Below are positions 1 to 4,601 of a DNA stretch of 39,429 bases, in pieces (position 1 is the stretch's first letter; every line of letters begins with the position of its first letter). Source of the DNA: Rhodobacter viridis (GTDB lineage: Bacteria > Pseudomonadota > Alphaproteobacteria > Rhodobacterales > Rhodobacteraceae); the NCBI RefSeq assembly GCF_003217355.1, contig NZ_QJTK01000003.1, positions 1-39,429 on the forward strand, in the 5' to 3' direction. The position numbers were made by a program, and so were the translations under genes. The notes under the pieces were generated by a model, which was not told the origin of the DNA, ran no database searches, and worked only from the letters and a program-made list of their open reading frames with translations.

Positions 1-155
1 AGCCGCTTGCCTTCCCGGCCCCAGAACGCATCCGGGTTCTCGATCGATTCCCGATACATCTCGAGGTATTTCGCACCGTTCGCATGCGCATCCTCAAAAC
101 CAGCGGGAACTTCCCGAAGTTCCGGCAGCGCAACAGCCTGGCTTTGCATCCCCAT
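1..155 (-). CDS. acsA: Acetyl-CoA synthetase, N-terminal fragment
   Basis: Only the first 51 codons lie in the window; the gene runs off the left edge. The start is ATG at 155 (or the in-frame ATG at 149), with GGAGG five bases before the first. The fragment has the AMP-forming acyl-CoA synthetase N-terminal signature, seen as YLEMYRESIENPDAFWGREG, which matches the usual acetyl-CoA synthetase opening where the chain packs against CoA. The full enzyme would activate acetate with ATP and CoA to acetyl-CoA in the cytoplasm. Propionyl- or acetoacetyl-CoA synthetase cannot be fully excluded from so short a piece. The gene is divergent from the rtcB2 operon and has its own AT-rich upstream region. 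Confidence 0.75.
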   Translation of the reverse strand, partial: MGMQSQAVALPELREVPAGFEDAHANGAKYLEMYRESIENPDAFWGREGKR

Positions 156-224
156 TCCATCCTCCCTGTGACGCGGCAAACGCCGCCTGCGCCAGGGCAA
201 GCCCCGGCATCACTCCTCAAAGGT

Positions 225-255
225 ATTGTAAACAGACTGTATGATGACCTGTAAA
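225..255 (-). promoter_or_regulatory. Putative promoter of the acetyl-CoA synthetase gene
   Basis: Read on the minus strand, TTTACA (255-250) and TACAAT (230-225) are separated by 19 bases, a plausible though long-spaced sigma70-type pair about 70-100 bases upstream of the acs start. The region is strikingly AT-rich for this genome. Both hexamers overlap copies of a repeated TGTAAA/TTTACA motif, so some of the match may reflect regulator sites rather than the promoter. Confidence 0.4.
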
Positions 256-317
256 CCCTTTAAATAAAAGGACAAAGCTGTAAAGATATTATCAGGTTTG
301 GCGCGCATACTGTAAAT
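226..317. repeat. Four TGTAAA direct repeats upstream of acs
   Basis: On the plus strand TGTAAA begins at 227, 250, 279 and 311; three of the four copies are preceded by C (CTGTAAA). All four have the same orientation in the 160 bases before acs. Repeated same-orientation hexamers in an AT-rich upstream region suggest binding sites for a transcription factor. No regulator can be named from the sequence. Confidence 0.5.
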
Positions 318-331
318 TAATTATCTGATCA

Positions 332-363
332 CGGGAAGTTCATAGAATATCAACAACTTCCCG
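332..363. repeat. Perfect 9-bp inverted repeat between acs and rtcB2
   Basis: CGGGAAGTT at 332-340 is followed by its exact complement AACTTCCCG at 355-363 with a 14-base AT-rich spacer. It lies in the shared upstream region of two divergent transcription units and could be an operator or an RNA hairpin. The rest of 364-585 holds no recognisable gene: the open frames there are arginine-rich, low-complexity GC artefacts. Confidence 0.5.
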
Positions 364-598
364 GCGAGAGGCTTTGCCCCGTCCGGCTTTGCCCTGCATC
401 CGACGGCAAACCCGCCCAACGCGCGCCCCCGGGCAAGGGCGAGGTCCGAACGGCGCCGAAACGGGCGCCGCCGCGTCGTTTCGAGGCTCCTGTGACCCGC
501 CTGCATCACCTCTGTTGCGCGCTTGCCGCAGATCTGGGCGCAGGGCCGAGAATCGGCTAGAAGCACGCATCCGCAACGCCAGCACAGGAGGGCACGGC

Positions 599-649
599 AT
601 GGTCACAGTCAGCATCGCTTCCCTTCCTCTGGAACCGGCACGGGTCTGA
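599..649 (+). CDS. Putative 16-residue leader peptide upstream of rtcB2
   Basis: A very short ORF, MVTVSIASLPLEPARV then TGA, sits behind an excellent Shine-Dalgarno sequence (AGGAGGG at 586-592, six bases before the ATG), better than that of rtcB2 itself. It ends 31 bases before an intrinsic terminator (681-700), which in turn lies just before rtcB2 at 722. Short ORF, terminator, then operon is the layout of attenuation leaders. The peptide has no run of one amino acid, so classical amino-acid attenuation is unlikely. A hairpin (631-638 with 669-675, one bulge) overlaps its stop codon. That it is translated is inference from the ribosome-binding site only; the alternative is a small RNA that happens to carry an ORF. 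Confidence 0.4.
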   Translation: MVTVSIASLPLEPARV

Positions 650-680
650 TCGCCTCTGGCGCGCCCCACCGGTCCGTTTC

Positions 681-700
681 GGCAGCCCTGGCTGCCTTTT
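681..700 (+). terminator. Intrinsic terminator in front of rtcB2 (candidate attenuator)
   Basis: GGCAGC (681-686) pairs with GCTGCC (691-696) across the loop CCTG, followed directly by TTTT (697-700). It stands 21 bases upstream of the rtcB2 start, so transcripts begun upstream must read through it to express the operon. No convincing alternative antiterminator helix was found by eye. Confidence 0.6.
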
Positions 701-721
701 CGTTACGGAAAGATCACGACG

Positions 722-1834
722 ATGGGCACTTCCCCGTCGCAGAGCGGCATCGCCCGGCTCTGCACCTTCTACCGCCGCGAGACCTGGATCGAGGGTCGCG
801 CGGAGGATCAACTGACTGACGTTTCCCGCTTCCCCGGCATGCAGGCCGTGGCCGGTTTTCCCGATCTGCATCCGGGCCGGTTCGGGCCGGTCGGTGCGGC
901 ATTTCTGGCGGATCGGATCTGGCCGCAGCTCGTCGGCCCCGACATCGGCTGCGGCATGGCGCTGTTTCGTCTCGACCTGCCGCGGCATCGGCTGAAGCTC
1001 GACAAGGCGGTGCGCCGTCTTGCCGTGCTTGATGCCGGGGCCGCGCCCGAGCGCGCGGTGCAGGCGCTGGCCGCGGCCGGGCTTGCGGGCCGGATCGGCG
1101 CCGCCGGGCTGGGCACGATCGGTGGCGGCAACCACTTCTGCGAGTTGCAGGTCGTGGCGCAAGCCGAACCGGGCAGCCCGCTGGCGGTGGGCACGCTCTG
1201 TCTGCTTGTCCATTCCGGCTCGCGCAGCCTTGGCGCGCGGGTGCTGGAGGGCATCGGGCAGGATTGGCGGCAGGGCTTTGCCCCGGGCAGCGCGGCGGCG
1301 CGGGACTATCTTGCGCTGCACGATCTGGCCGAGGCCTGGGCGCGGCTCAACCGCCGTCTGATCGCCGAGACCGCGGCCGAAGCACTCGGCGCGGATCTCG
1401 ATCTCGTCTGTGATGCCGTGCACAACCATCTGATCCGGCAGGGCGATCTCTGGCTGCATCGGAAAGGGGCGGCCAGTGTGGCGGGCGGGCTCGTGCCGCT
1501 GGCCGGCTCGCGCGAGGCGGAAAGCTATCTGCTGGCCACCCCGGATGCGGTGCCCGAGGCGCTGGCCTCGGTCTCGCACGGGGCCGGGCGGCGCTATGAC
1601 CGCTCGGCCATGCACGGCCGGATTGCGAAGACGCGCTCCGACCTTGCGGCGCTGAGCCGGACCCGGTTCGGCGGCCGGGTGGTCTGTGCCGATCGCGACC
1701 TGCTGATCGAAGAGGCGGGGGCGGCCTACAAGTCTCCGGCGATGGTGGTGGCCGATCTGGACCACTTCGGTCTGGCGCGGCGTCTTGCGGTGCTCGAGCC
1801 GCTGATCACCTGGAAAACCGGGGGGTTGGCATGA
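722..1834 (+). CDS. rtcB2: RNA 3'-phosphate ligase RtcB2 (PrfH-linked)
   Basis: A 370-residue RtcB-family ligase, which joins RNA 2',3'-cyclic or 3'-phosphate ends to 5'-OH ends using GTP and Mn2+. Family motifs are present in order: DIGCG with metal ligands Asp74 and Cys77, GGGNHF (His138), HSGSR (His164), the HN motif (His234), HRKGA at 246-250, and SHGAGR with the guanylylated His286. The chain is shorter than E. coli RtcB (about 408). The gene overlaps prfH by ATGA (1831-1834), so the two are translationally coupled. That pairing identifies the PrfH-associated RtcB2 group, reported to reseal 16S rRNA cut in the decoding centre, rather than a tRNA-splicing ligase with archease; no archease, rtcA or rtcR is adjacent. 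The ribosome-binding site is weak (GGAAAG). Confidence 0.93.
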   Translation: MGTSPSQSGIARLCTFYRRETWIEGRAEDQLTDVSRFPGMQAVAGFPDLHPGRFGPVGAAFLADRIWPQLVGPDIGCGMALFRLDLPRHRLKLDKAVRRLAVLDAGAAPERAVQALAAAGLAGRIGAAGLGTIGGGNHFCELQVVAQAEPGSPLAVGTLCLLVHSGSRSLGARVLEGIGQDWRQGFAPGSAAARDYLALHDLAEAWARLNRRLIAETAAEALGADLDLVCDAVHNHLIRQGDLWLHRKGAASVAGGLVPLAGSREAESYLLATPDAVPEALASVSHGAGRRYDRSAMHGRIAKTRSDLAALSRTRFGGRVVCADRDLLIEEAGAAYKSPAMVVADLDHFGLARRLAVLEPLITWKTGGLA

Positions 1835-2472
1835 GCGCGGATCAGGCGGTGATGCTGGTGTCGAGCGGCAACGGCCCGGGCGAATGCCGGATCGCGGTGG
1901 CGCATCTGCTGGCGCGGTTGGCGGAGGCGGTCGAGGCGGCAGGACTGGCGGTCGATGTGGCCGAACGCCCGGCCGAGCATGGCCCGGCCTCGGCCGTGGT
2001 GGTGCTGACGGGGCCGGGCGCCGAGCGGCTGGCGCGGGAGTGGGAGGGGGTCGTGCTCTGGCGCTGCCCCAGCCCGCTGCGCCCGCGCCATCCGCGCAAG
2101 ACCTGGTTCGTGCAGCTCTTTGGGCTGCCCGCGCCCGGGGAGGCCGCGCAGATCGATCCGGCGCAGGTGACGATGGAGGCGATCCGGGCCGGTGGTCCGG
2201 GCGGGCAGCATCAGAACAAGACCGCGAGCGCGGTGCGGGCGCGCTGGACCGATCCGGCGGGGCGGCTCTGGTCGGTGGTGGTGCGCGACGACCGCTCGCA
2301 GCATCTCAACCGGCGGATTGCGCTGGCGCGGCTGTCGGCGATGGTGGCGGCCGAGCGCGCCGAAGCCGAGGCGGCGCGGCGCGACGCGGCCCATGCGCTG
2401 CATGCCCAGCTGATCCGCGGCGCCCCGAAGCGGATCTTCGAGGGGCCGCGGTTCCGTCCGGCCCGGGCGTGA
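1831..2472 (+). CDS. prfH: Peptide chain release factor homolog PrfH
   Basis: A 213-residue class I release-factor-like protein. The catalytic GGQ loop is clear at residues 124-126 within GGPGGQHQNK, the tripeptide that triggers peptidyl-tRNA hydrolysis. The codon-recognition domain of true RF1/RF2 is missing, as expected for PrfH at about 200 residues. PrfH is reported to free peptides from ribosomes whose 16S rRNA has been cleaved in the decoding centre; the released, damaged 30S subunit is then sealed by RtcB. The start ATG overlaps the rtcB2 stop and a terminator follows, so the two genes form a complete operon. The basic C-terminal region (RGAPKRIFEGPRFRPARA) could contact rRNA, by analogy with other rescue factors. 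Confidence 0.92.
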   Translation: MSADQAVMLVSSGNGPGECRIAVAHLLARLAEAVEAAGLAVDVAERPAEHGPASAVVVLTGPGAERLAREWEGVVLWRCPSPLRPRHPRKTWFVQLFGLPAPGEAAQIDPAQVTMEAIRAGGPGGQHQNKTASAVRARWTDPAGRLWSVVVRDDRSQHLNRRIALARLSAMVAAERAEAEAARRDAAHALHAQLIRGAPKRIFEGPRFRPARA

Positions 2473-2477
2473 CGGGG

Positions 2478-2508
2478 CGGGAGGGGGCACCCTCCCGTCC
2501 GACTTTTT
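2478..2508 (+). terminator. Terminator of rtcB2-prfH
   Basis: CGGGAGGG (2478-2485), loop GGCA, CCCTCCCG (2490-2497), then a T5 run at 2504-2508. The eight-base GC stem begins six bases after the prfH stop. Confidence 0.8.
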
Positions 2509-2651
2509 CGACGTTGCCTTCGGGATGGGCGCACTGCCCGCTTCGTCGTCACGCGGCCCGGCCGCGGCCTCGCGTGCCAAGCTTCAGGGTTGCCGAAAGT
2601 GAAAAACCGGAGGAAGCTGAGGGAGGAGAGCTTGAGAGGTTTGCATTATAC

Positions 2652-2999
2652 ATGTTTGAGGGGCACGCTTGGCTCATTCCAATCCTCGACGATCTGATCG
2701 AGCATTGTGAGCGGCATTCCATGCAGTCGACCGCGACCGGTTTGCGGCAGGCGCGGTTGGCGCTGGTGGCGCAATTCGGGGCGCTGGAACGGCTTCTGGG
2801 CGATGATCCGCAGGAGCGCTGGCTGGGCGAGGTGATCGATGAGCTGGCCCGCTATTGTCATCAGCAGGGTCTCGACGAGGTCGAGATGAAGCTTCTGCAG
2901 GCGCAGGAGGCCTGGCATGACGAATGCGAACCGCCGCAGCGCGGCAATGTGCTGACCTTCCCCGCGGGTTTCGGCCGTCGCGAGGATGAAGCTGGCTGA
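2652..2999 (+). CDS. Hypothetical protein, 115 residues
   Basis: Not recognised as a named family. The frame stays open far upstream, but residues before ATG 2652 read as GC noise, whereas the segment from this ATG has varied, coding-like composition (FEGHAWLIPILDDLIEHCER). It is predicted soluble and mostly helical: two or three long amphipathic helices at about residues 5-85, then a polar tail. Cysteines fall near residues 18 and 75-95, with no CxxC pair. The ribosome-binding site is weak (GAGAGG about 12 bases upstream). It stands alone between the rtcB2-prfH terminator and the PAS-protein gene on the same strand. The 363 bases after it (3000-3362) hold only a weak hairpin at 3188-3206. 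Confidence 0.6.
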   Translation: MFEGHAWLIPILDDLIEHCERHSMQSTATGLRQARLALVAQFGALERLLGDDPQERWLGEVIDELARYCHQQGLDEVEMKLLQAQEAWHDECEPPQRGNVLTFPAGFGRREDEAG

Positions 3000-3187
3000 C
3001 GCGGGCGCGGGGGCACCGGCGCCGCCTGCGATCCGCGACGCGAATCAGATATTCCGGGGGCCTGTTTCGGCGCGCTGATCCGGGCATCGCCGAGGCAGGC
3101 CCACCACCGCCTCGCGCGCTGCGAATGCGGATTTTTCAAGCACACGCAGGCGTTGCAGAGCGTCCGAAGGGCGCCCTGCGACACTTT

Positions 3188-3206
3188 GGCAGGCTGCTGC
3201 CGTTTT
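3188..3206 (+). terminator. Possible weak terminator
   Basis: GGCAG (3188-3192), loop GCTG, CTGCC (3197-3201), G, then TTTT (3203-3206). It lies almost 190 bases after the preceding gene and the stem is only five bases. The remainder of 3000-3362 shows no gene; AT-rich bases around 3250-3305 probably carry the promoter of the next gene. Confidence 0.3.
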
Positions 3207-3362
3207 CCCGCAATTTTCGTCGAATCCCTGCCTCTGGGGCATCGGAGATCCGTAAAACTCGAATGATCACGGATGCTTATCAATTTTTGCACAAGGTTCT
3301 CGGGATTAGCCTTGTCGCACCACATCGGATCGCGCCCCCCTCGCGCCACCCCAGAGAGCCAG

Positions 3363-4601
3363 ATGAACGCAGTGATATCGCCTACCCTTGCCCGCGAGGG
3401 GGAAGCCGATTTCGGTTTCCATGAACTCTTCTTTTCCCGCACCGACACGCGCGGGGTGATCCTGTCCGGCAACGAGGTGTTCCGCCGCGTGTCCGGCTAC
3501 GGCTGGAACGATCTGCTGGGGGCGCCCCACAAGGTCGTGCGCCACCCCGACACGCCGCGCGGCATGTTCCGCATTCTCTGGAACGCGCTTGGCAATGGCA
3601 ATCCGATGGGCGGATACGTCAAGAACCGGGCCCGCAATGGCGAATACTACTGGGTTTTCGCCGTGCTGCTGCCCGCGCCGGGCGGGTTCCTGTCGGTGCG
3701 GATGAAACCCTCGACGCCGCTTTTTGCCCGCGTCCGCGAGGTCTATGCCGAGCTGTCGCAACGCGAGCGGACCGAGCGTCTTGATCCCGACCAGGGGGCG
3801 AAAGCGCTGCGCGACTTCGCCGCGAGCGAGGGATTTTCCAGCTACACCAGCTTCATGGCCTCGGCGATGGGGCAGGAGCTTGCCGCCCGCGATGCCAAGC
3901 TCGGTCGGTTGACCGATGTCCGCACGACGCAGTTGATCGCGCTGAACACCTCGCTCGAAGAGGTCTCGCGCGAGCAGCGCAATCTCCTGCGCAGCTTCGA
4001 GGCGCTGCAATCCGTGCCCAACAACATGCGCATCATCGCCTCGCGGCTGGAGCCCTCGGGCGGGCCGGTTTCGGCGATTTCGGAAAACTATCGCAGCTCG
4101 TCGCAGGTCATTTCCGAGCGGCTGCGCAGCTTCGTGGCCGGGCAGGACAACCTGTGCGACCGCGTCTCGCGGCAGGCGTCGAAGGCGCTGTTCCTGATCG
4201 GGGCCTATCGGGTCCTGTCGGAGATGCGCCGGAATTTCGACGACGCGATGCCGGTGCCGGGGATCGACTGGGCGCATGAGCGGCAGATGCTGACCGAGAT
4301 CGAGGCTCAGGCGCAGCGCGATACCGGCACGGCGATGGAGCAGGCGATTGCCCATGCCGAGGTGCTGGGCCGCGCCAGCGCCGAGATCCGCCGTCAGATG
4401 CTCGGCCTCGATACGATCCGGGTGCTGGGCCGGGTGGAGACCGGGCGGATGCGCGGCACCAACAGCCATCTGTCGGCGACGATCGACCAGCTTGATGTCT
4501 CGCATTCCGACATTCGGCTGCGGCTTGAAACGATCATGCGGCTCTCGGAAGGCATCGGCACGACGATGCGGATGTTCCAGCGCACGCAACGGGGGGCCTG
4601 A
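3363..4601 (+). CDS. Aer-like PAS sensor protein without an output domain
   Basis: Residues about 20-125 form an Aer/PAS-type sensor domain: the stretch TDTRGVILSGNEVFRRVSGY, then a VVRHPDTPRGMF block and NGEYYWVFA, which in Aer surround the FAD pocket. The rest (about 130-412) is helical with likely coiled coils (residues 195-235 and 330-410). No transmembrane segment, HAMP, kinase, GGDEF or methyl-accepting domain is seen. It may sense oxygen or redox state and act through protein contacts. I chose ATG 3363 because upstream codons (from 3273) lack family similarity and a ribosome-binding site; that gives 412 residues. The gene ends 15 bases before the convergent thiX. Partners are unknown. 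Confidence 0.75.
   Translation: MNAVISPTLAREGEADFGFHELFFSRTDTRGVILSGNEVFRRVSGYGWNDLLGAPHKVVRHPDTPRGMFRILWNALGNGNPMGGYVKNRARNGEYYWVFAVLLPAPGGFLSVRMKPSTPLFARVREVYAELSQRERTERLDPDQGAKALRDFAASEGFSSYTSFMASAMGQELAARDAKLGRLTDVRTTQLIALNTSLEEVSREQRNLLRSFEALQSVPNNMRIIASRLEPSGGPVSAISENYRSSSQVISERLRSFVAGQDNLCDRVSRQASKALFLIGAYRVLSEMRRNFDDAMPVPGIDWAHERQMLTEIEAQAQRDTGTAMEQAIAHAEVLGRASAEIRRQMLGLDTIRVLGRVETGRMRGTNSHLSATIDQLDVSHSDIRLRLETIMRLSEGIGTTMRMFQRTQRGA

Follow-up and report, generated by a model that had tools for sequence, protein, structure and literature searches.

A short leader ORF with proposed alternative RNA pairings upstream of rtcB2-prfH: a candidate ribosome-position attenuator in Rhodobacter viridis and other proteobacteria

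The region upstream of rtcB2-prfH in Rhodobacter viridis probably is a leader-ORF attenuator of the kind represented by PA5471.1, the armZ leader, and controls both genes. It is located in the window, i.e. the whole stretch of 39,429 nucleotides that was analyzed. The computed support consists of the recurrence of the ORF, a motif independent of the reading frame, the pairing of two helices termed P2 and P3, and the thermodynamic gating of the rtcB2 start, all in gamma- and betaproteobacterial (gamma/beta) loci. From this we infer that the switch acts in cells and that the same switch is present in the window, where its helices can be drawn and the statistics are weak. A preliminary description of the window had proposed that ribosome position on the leader decides read-through at a terminator. 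The ribosome-position switch as such is backed by the gamma/beta comparison and the published PA5471.1-armZ-prfH system, and the terminator had to be abandoned as its conserved part.

The leader ORF and its recurrence upstream of rtcB2

SD, leader ORF, the hairpin at 631-675, the stem at 681-696, and the rtcB2 start were all located in the sequence where the preliminary description had placed them (Table 1). The leader ORF (ATG 599 to TGA 649, 16 codons, MVTVSIASLPLEPARV) is preceded by the plus-strand SD AGGAGGG at 586-592, with an SD energy of -10.8 kcal/mol, and its stop is separated by 72 nt from the rtcB2 ATG at 722. Both helix P1 (586-592 with 622-628) and the hairpin previously described, there spanning 630-676, are present in the minimum-energy fold of 580-722. 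As a whole, this fold is not more stable than shuffled sequences (z 0.86; 165 of 200 shuffles folded at least as well). No sigma-70-type promoter was matched on the plus strand of window positions 1-2700. The sole Rfam match in window positions 1-3500 (E 3.1) was outside the leader on the other strand, and in eight relatives only tRNAs reached the gathering score, the leaders being without any match at E 1.

Table 1. Coordinates of features in the window
Feature	Position	Strand	Basis
Inserted cassette (leader, rtcB2, prfH), approximate extent	363..2582	.	absent in three sister genomes
Segment 1, P1 5' strand (CCAG 579-582, SD AGGAGGG 586-592)	579..592	+	sequence; SD part in fold
Leader ORF, 16 codons, stop TGA	599..649	+	sequence, SD energy
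Segment 2, P1 3' strand (CCTTCCT 622-628, CTGG 629-632) overlapping P2 5' strand (GGA 631-633, CCGG 635-638)	622..638	+	sequence/fold
Segment 3, P2 3' strand (CCGGTCC 669-675) overlapping P3 5' strand (TCCGT 673-677)	669..677	+	fold, clade alignment
Terminator-like hairpin 681-696 with T-rich tail, nested within P3	681..704	+	sequence; predicted at each modeled ribosome position
Segment 4, rtcB2 SD region ACGGA, P3 3' strand	705..709	+	clade alignment, sequence
rtcB2, RNA ligase	722..1834	+	PF01139 and TIGR03073 above cut-off
prfH, release factor homologue, overlapping the rtcB2 stop	1831..2472	+	PF00472 above cut-off
Terminator-like hairpin (11 pairs) with T-run 3' of prfH	2475..2510	+	terminator-like site search

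PrfH of the window scored 160.1 bits with TIGR03072, just below the cut-off of 166.65. Three sister genomes (G002, G003, G004) matched the window at 1-362, 1-325, and 45-323, respectively, and again from 2583 onward after only 41, 77, and 81 nt. Thus, leader, rtcB2, and prfH are located on an insert of about 2.2 kb. None of the 17 other genomes of the genus searched carries rtcB2, leaving the window's own genome as 1 of 18. In the family, rtcB2 was present in 20 of 394 genomes drawn. Wider searches found rtcB2 in 1 of 15 genomes of the genus of G263 and in 4 of 289 of the class; 3 of 166 relatives of G336 and 3 of 176 relatives of G358 carried rtcB2, all already in the collection. The phage search for rtcB2 matched one record, and among the matches listed from viral contigs (80 loci) L195 reached 42% identity and the others at most 33%. 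Solved structures were found for general RtcB only, and no ArmZ structure was found. On the Shinella plasmids L191 and L275 a second RtcB-family gene directly precedes the leader-rtcB2-prfH unit.

For comparison, 89 rtcB2 loci (87 distinct, with two duplicate pairs) were collected by searches at family, phylum, and order level, a named genome scan, and from E. coli and plasmids. In the named genome scan, among the matches listed (at least 80), 25 with at least 36% identity were taken as RtcB2 and 55 with at most 31% were set aside as other RtcB, in both cases by identity alone. Loci L193-L195 and L275-L277 are outside the 89-locus set. An ATG-initiated ORF of 12-16 codons with an SD energy of -7 kcal/mol or lower within 350 nt upstream was detected automatically at 47 of 88 loci compared to 0.9 expected from dinucleotide shuffles, one of the 89 loci having been dropped for too short an upstream sequence. 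Curated leaders, defined as the strongest-SD ORF (set by hand in L019, L165, and L191), were called at 69 of the 89 loci. These comprise 65 distinct leaders, of which 59 have 12-16 codons; L012 and L062 are one record, and the leader regions of L077/L166, L065/L169, and L182/L192 are identical. The remaining 20 loci were set aside by eye and have no standard leader assigned. Among the 20 family genomes with rtcB2 the leader was called in 18, including the window's own, which supports an association of the ORF with the operon; L020 and L021 are the other two. Named carriers include Phaeobacter, Gilliamella, Pseudomonas, Pseudoalteromonas, Morganella, Vibrio, Undibacterium, Massilia, and Burkholderia.

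Several loci differ in layout. By eye, the rtcB2 start of L020, L081, and L084 is overlapped by an ORF in another frame that has a strong SD, and the 5' half seems to be lost in L021. In L064, L068, L069, L079, L187, and L194 the RtcB2-like gene lacks the usual MG start and has no recognizable leader; in L187 and L194 it closely follows another open frame. L146 and L193 have short ORFs some 230 nt 5' of rtcB2 whose products end in PGYVGL or KGYVGL; these may be further leaders and were not counted.

Predicted alternative pairings in gamma/beta loci and in E. coli

Leader peptide sequences vary widely among loci. In contrast to the peptides, a core motif, TGC[AG]G, recurs at +22, +24, +25, +28, or +30 in 28 of 35 non-alpha loci with compact leaders and thereby falls in different reading frames. 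Hence, in gamma/beta loci the RNA rather than the peptide is kept, and a motif that shifts frame while start, stop, and length are preserved argues for selection on the RNA together with the act of translation.

Three helices recur in these loci. P1 pairs the leader SD with leader codons, P2 pairs distal leader codons with a segment in front of rtcB2, and P3 pairs this same segment with the rtcB2 SD instead. In a swap test each strand was compared with its own and with permuted partners (2000 permutations, relatedness being ignored) in hand-chosen representatives, 47 of the 69 loci (25 gamma/beta, 22 alpha). The 25 gamma/beta loci favored their own partners, with z values of -3.9 for P1, -7.3 for P2, and -3.3 for P3, and 0, 0, and 2 of the 2000 permutations were as good, respectively; three control pairings were not favored in these loci. 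A seven-base Watson-Crick partner for P2 was present in 11 of 24 motif-chosen loci versus 0.1 expected, this set comprising the motif loci plus L074 and L086 and omitting L082 and long leaders. P2 extends to about 15 pairs in L148, and in L150 the search picked a site other than the one drawn by eye. When single loci were tested against shuffles, P1 was supported (p at most 0.05) in 39, P2 in 27, and P3 in 9 of the 69 loci.

Covariation of the three helices was analyzed in an alignment of 18 hand-chosen loci; it is clear for P2 and modest for P3 in gamma/beta loci. For P2, 97.2% of the cells hold standard pairs versus 89.6% in shuffles, none of 500 shuffles reaching this value; three of the six pairs have changed on both sides, and slid controls reached 24-49%. 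P3 has 84.4% standard pairs versus 79.1% (0 of 500) and one double-change pair; the number of such pairs and the pair types did not exceed shuffles, and a slide by -1 scored higher on covariation. P1 showed no excess (83.3% versus 82.7%; 141 of 500 shuffles), perhaps because its 5' strand is held by the ribosome, and is the least supported helix in these loci.

Gating of the rtcB2 start was modeled for 48 hand-chosen representatives of the 69 loci (E. coli twice) with a ribosome placed on codon 1 or on the stop codon of the leader. In 23 of 26 gamma/beta loci the rtcB2 start was predicted to open more easily with the ribosome at codon 1 than at the stop (p 1e-5), the mean opening costs being 8.55 kcal/mol at codon 1, 11.18 at the stop, and 10.49 for the free RNA. 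In L071, L085, and L184 the modeled gating goes the wrong way.

In E. coli the leader region is matched in 5343 of 5426 complete genomes, in 1426 of these over at least 80% of the 142-base query, and in ATCC 25922 it is identical to L182 over the 142 bases compared; a direct test in this species is thus possible. In E. coli K-12, rtcB2 and prfH are pseudogenes and the leader is retained. The helices of L182 are CTGCAAGGAG:CTCTTTGCAG (P1), GCAGAC:GTCTGC (P2), and CCATT:AATGG at the rtcB2 SD (P3). Modeled probabilities of P2 are 0.17 in the free RNA and 0.89, 0.27, 0.92, and 0 with the ribosome at codons 1, 3, and 5 and the stop, respectively, and the corresponding values of P3 are 0.80, 0.42, 0.75, 0.44, and 0.61. 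The predicted dip of P2 at codon 3 is contrary to the simple model. In L153 (E. coli GMF065) and L154 (MG1655) a repeat-like element separates the P2 3' strand from the rtcB2 SD, and the partial matches suggest the same element in many E. coli. A structural-entropy screen lists the E. coli stretch 253317-253416 (PMC4448311), which by coordinate count lies just 3' of the leader.

The window clade, the terminator, and other explanations

As drawn in the window, P1 consists of AGGAGGG:CCTTCCT and CCAG:CTGG, P2 of GGA-CCGG:CCGG-TCC, and P3 of TCCGT:ACGGA; P1 and P2 share positions 631-632, and P2 and P3 share 673-675. The 631-675 hairpin of the preliminary description corresponds to the middle helix P2; across loci the recurrent element is pairing of the rtcB2 SD, not the intrinsic terminator. 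Among six aligned relatives (L189 and L276 being near-identical) neither the GGA of P2 nor the TCC varies. P3 has one compensating change, from UCCGU:ACGGA in the window to UCCAU:AUGGA in L003 and L189/L276. Shuffle tests on the window alone were not significant for P1 (p 0.335), P2 (0.72), or P3 (0.34). In the 22 alpha representatives 32 (P1), 69 (P2), and 325 (P3) of 2000 permutations were as good as the own partners, and gating was not significant, codon 1 being easier than the stop in 15 of 22 loci (p 0.12). In the window model, in which the P2 probability is that of the CCGG part, P3 vanishes with the ribosome at codons 5-6, as the switch predicts, and reaches only 0.23 at the stop; exposure of the rtcB2 SD did not rise at codons 5-6 (0.61 free, 0.51). 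For L003 and L189, ribosomes on codons 5-6 were predicted to leave the SD more exposed than a ribosome at the stop, but L189 is open even in the free RNA and the maximum for L003 is at codon 10. The same anatomy can thus be drawn in the window, with weak window and alpha statistics, and its operation there is mainly an argument from analogy.

The preliminary description had assigned the output to the intrinsic terminator, and a classical transcription attenuation, with the position of the leader ribosome setting termination at 681-696 before rtcB2, is an unlikely alternative that has some points in its favor. It was proposed for PA5471.1 (PMC12057347, PMC13041342). A terminator-like stem followed by TTTTCGTT lies between leader and rtcB2 in the window, and three of the four closest relatives by RtcB2 have such a site (L003, L004, and L189, not L005), as do 6 of 25 alpha loci versus 1.2 expected, a count in which the single record L012/L062 appears twice. 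A single site is weak evidence, since window positions 1-2700 hold five terminator-like sites versus 1.7 expected, and the tail at this one has just four consecutive T. Outside the alphaproteobacteria, enrichment disappears (4 of 44 loci versus 2.9 expected). Moreover, when transcripts were modeled up to the T-run in four loci, the probability of the hairpin was 0.57-1.00 wherever the ribosome was placed. Because most loci lack it and its predicted folding is irrespective of ribosome position, the terminator was rejected as the conserved core; in these models it does not look like a switch, and it may lower basal read-through. A putative promoter 5' of the leader, at a match of at least 9 of 12, was found in 0 of 25 alpha loci versus 0.4 expected and in 14 of 44 others versus 8.1.

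Plain translational coupling or reinitiation, by which the strong leader SD supplies ribosomes to a poorly exposed rtcB2 start, would agree with the difference in median SD energy over the 69 loci (-8.0 kcal/mol for the leader versus -3.5 for rtcB2) and with the overlap of a strong-SD ORF with the rtcB2 start in some loci (L020 and L084, by eye). It does not predict a covarying P2, and the distance from leader stop to rtcB2 start is 64-290 nt (median 94), which is long for reinitiation, so that we regard coupling as improbable. A small functional or arrest peptide could explain the narrowly conserved ORF length, yet given the widely differing sequences and the frame shifts of the core motif in gamma/beta loci, for which a conserved arrest peptide was rejected, this appears highly improbable.

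Proposed mechanism and relation to known systems

In the switch that we favor, the leader SD would pair in the OFF state with leader codons 7-12 or so (P1), leaving segment 3 free to sequester the rtcB2 SD (P3). A healthy ribosome traversing the leader would cover segment 2 and thereby make segment 3 again available for P3. In the ON state a ribosome would initiate on the strong leader SD and halt within the first few codons, so that segment 1 is masked and segment 2 is free; segments 2 and 3 would then form P2 and release the rtcB2 SD. Since the peptide sequence is not constrained, any failure to elongate would act as trigger, whether it results from antibiotics, a lack of tRNAs, or cleavage of the decoding centre.

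The Pseudomonas aeruginosa leader PA5471.1 is reported to encode 13 residues and to lie some 250 bp 5' of the RtcB-like gene PA5471 (armZ); PA5471 and PA5470 (prfH) share a transcript, and ribosome-targeting drugs act as inducers (PMC12057347, PMC3516279, PMC3575510, PMC13041342). Complete translation of PA5471.1 is described to give a 3:4 hairpin and the OFF state and stalling to prevent 3:4 and give the ON state; defects in the tRNAs that read codons 3 and 4 make these two codons important (PMC13041342). Its output has been described as a terminator (PMC12057347, PMC13041342) and the device has also been termed translational attenuation (PMC3575510). PA5471 was assigned to cluster PRK09588, and the E. 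coli homologue ykfJ was reported to be inducible by 4-azaleucine (PMC3516279).

Compared with this published description, the window shares the short leader ORF (16 residues here), the following RtcB-like gene and prfH, and, in the proposed switch, segments 3:4 as the OFF hairpin, with OFF upon complete translation and ON upon stalling; its RtcB2 also matches PRK09588, at 357 bits and thus under the cut-off of 407. It differs in the 72 nt from leader stop to rtcB2 and in SD pairing rather than a terminator as recurrent element, and ArmZ has been studied as MexZ anti-repressor.

The translational attenuators of ermC and ermB form 1:2 and 3:4 in the OFF state and 2:3 in the ON state, and ribosome arrest within the leader exposes the SD of the gene. 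The same helix logic would apply here. In contrast, arrest in ermC/ermB is drug-dependent at a set codon, whereas the proposed switch uses the SD of the leader itself as segment 1 and places no constraint on the peptide. Genes for secretion or translation are controlled by failure of the very function they serve in secM-secA and the prfB frameshift, which resemble the present case in this self-sensing but differ in mechanism and genes. RtcR and sigma54 control rtcBA; there, too, an RtcB-type ligase is regulated, by a protein and in a different operon. The leader attenuator is an ordinary kind of device, known from one species and here apparently found in a new host and in many others including E. 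coli.

Ribosomes cleaved by colicin E3 were reported to initiate about 30% less efficiently and to lose elongation gradually over several codons, incorporation being zero after about eight (PMC2615495); older reports cited there conflict on initiation by E3-treated ribosomes. RtcB2-PrfH protects ATCC 25922 against colicin E3 (PMC9223846), and the accessible parts of PMC9223846, PMC1586002, and PMC6514570 mention no leader. No account of a conserved rtcB2-prfH leader outside P. aeruginosa was found in the literature search, which covered few subscription journals. What is unusual is that the position of the switch strand at codons 8-13 or so, with the stop after 12-16, would fit failure of E3-cleaved ribosomes within about eight codons, and damage to the decoding centre may be the selected signal. 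It is possible, though somewhat less likely than not, that across proteobacteria ribosomes with a cut decoding centre themselves induce their repair operon by initiating on the leader, halting within few codons, and exposing the rtcB2 start, PA5471.1 then being the single example studied of a device that is widespread and detects ribosomes able to initiate but not to elongate. If true, this would connect the way in which colicin E3-cleaved ribosomes fail with the drug-inducible leader of armZ and with the repair of rRNA by RtcB2-PrfH.
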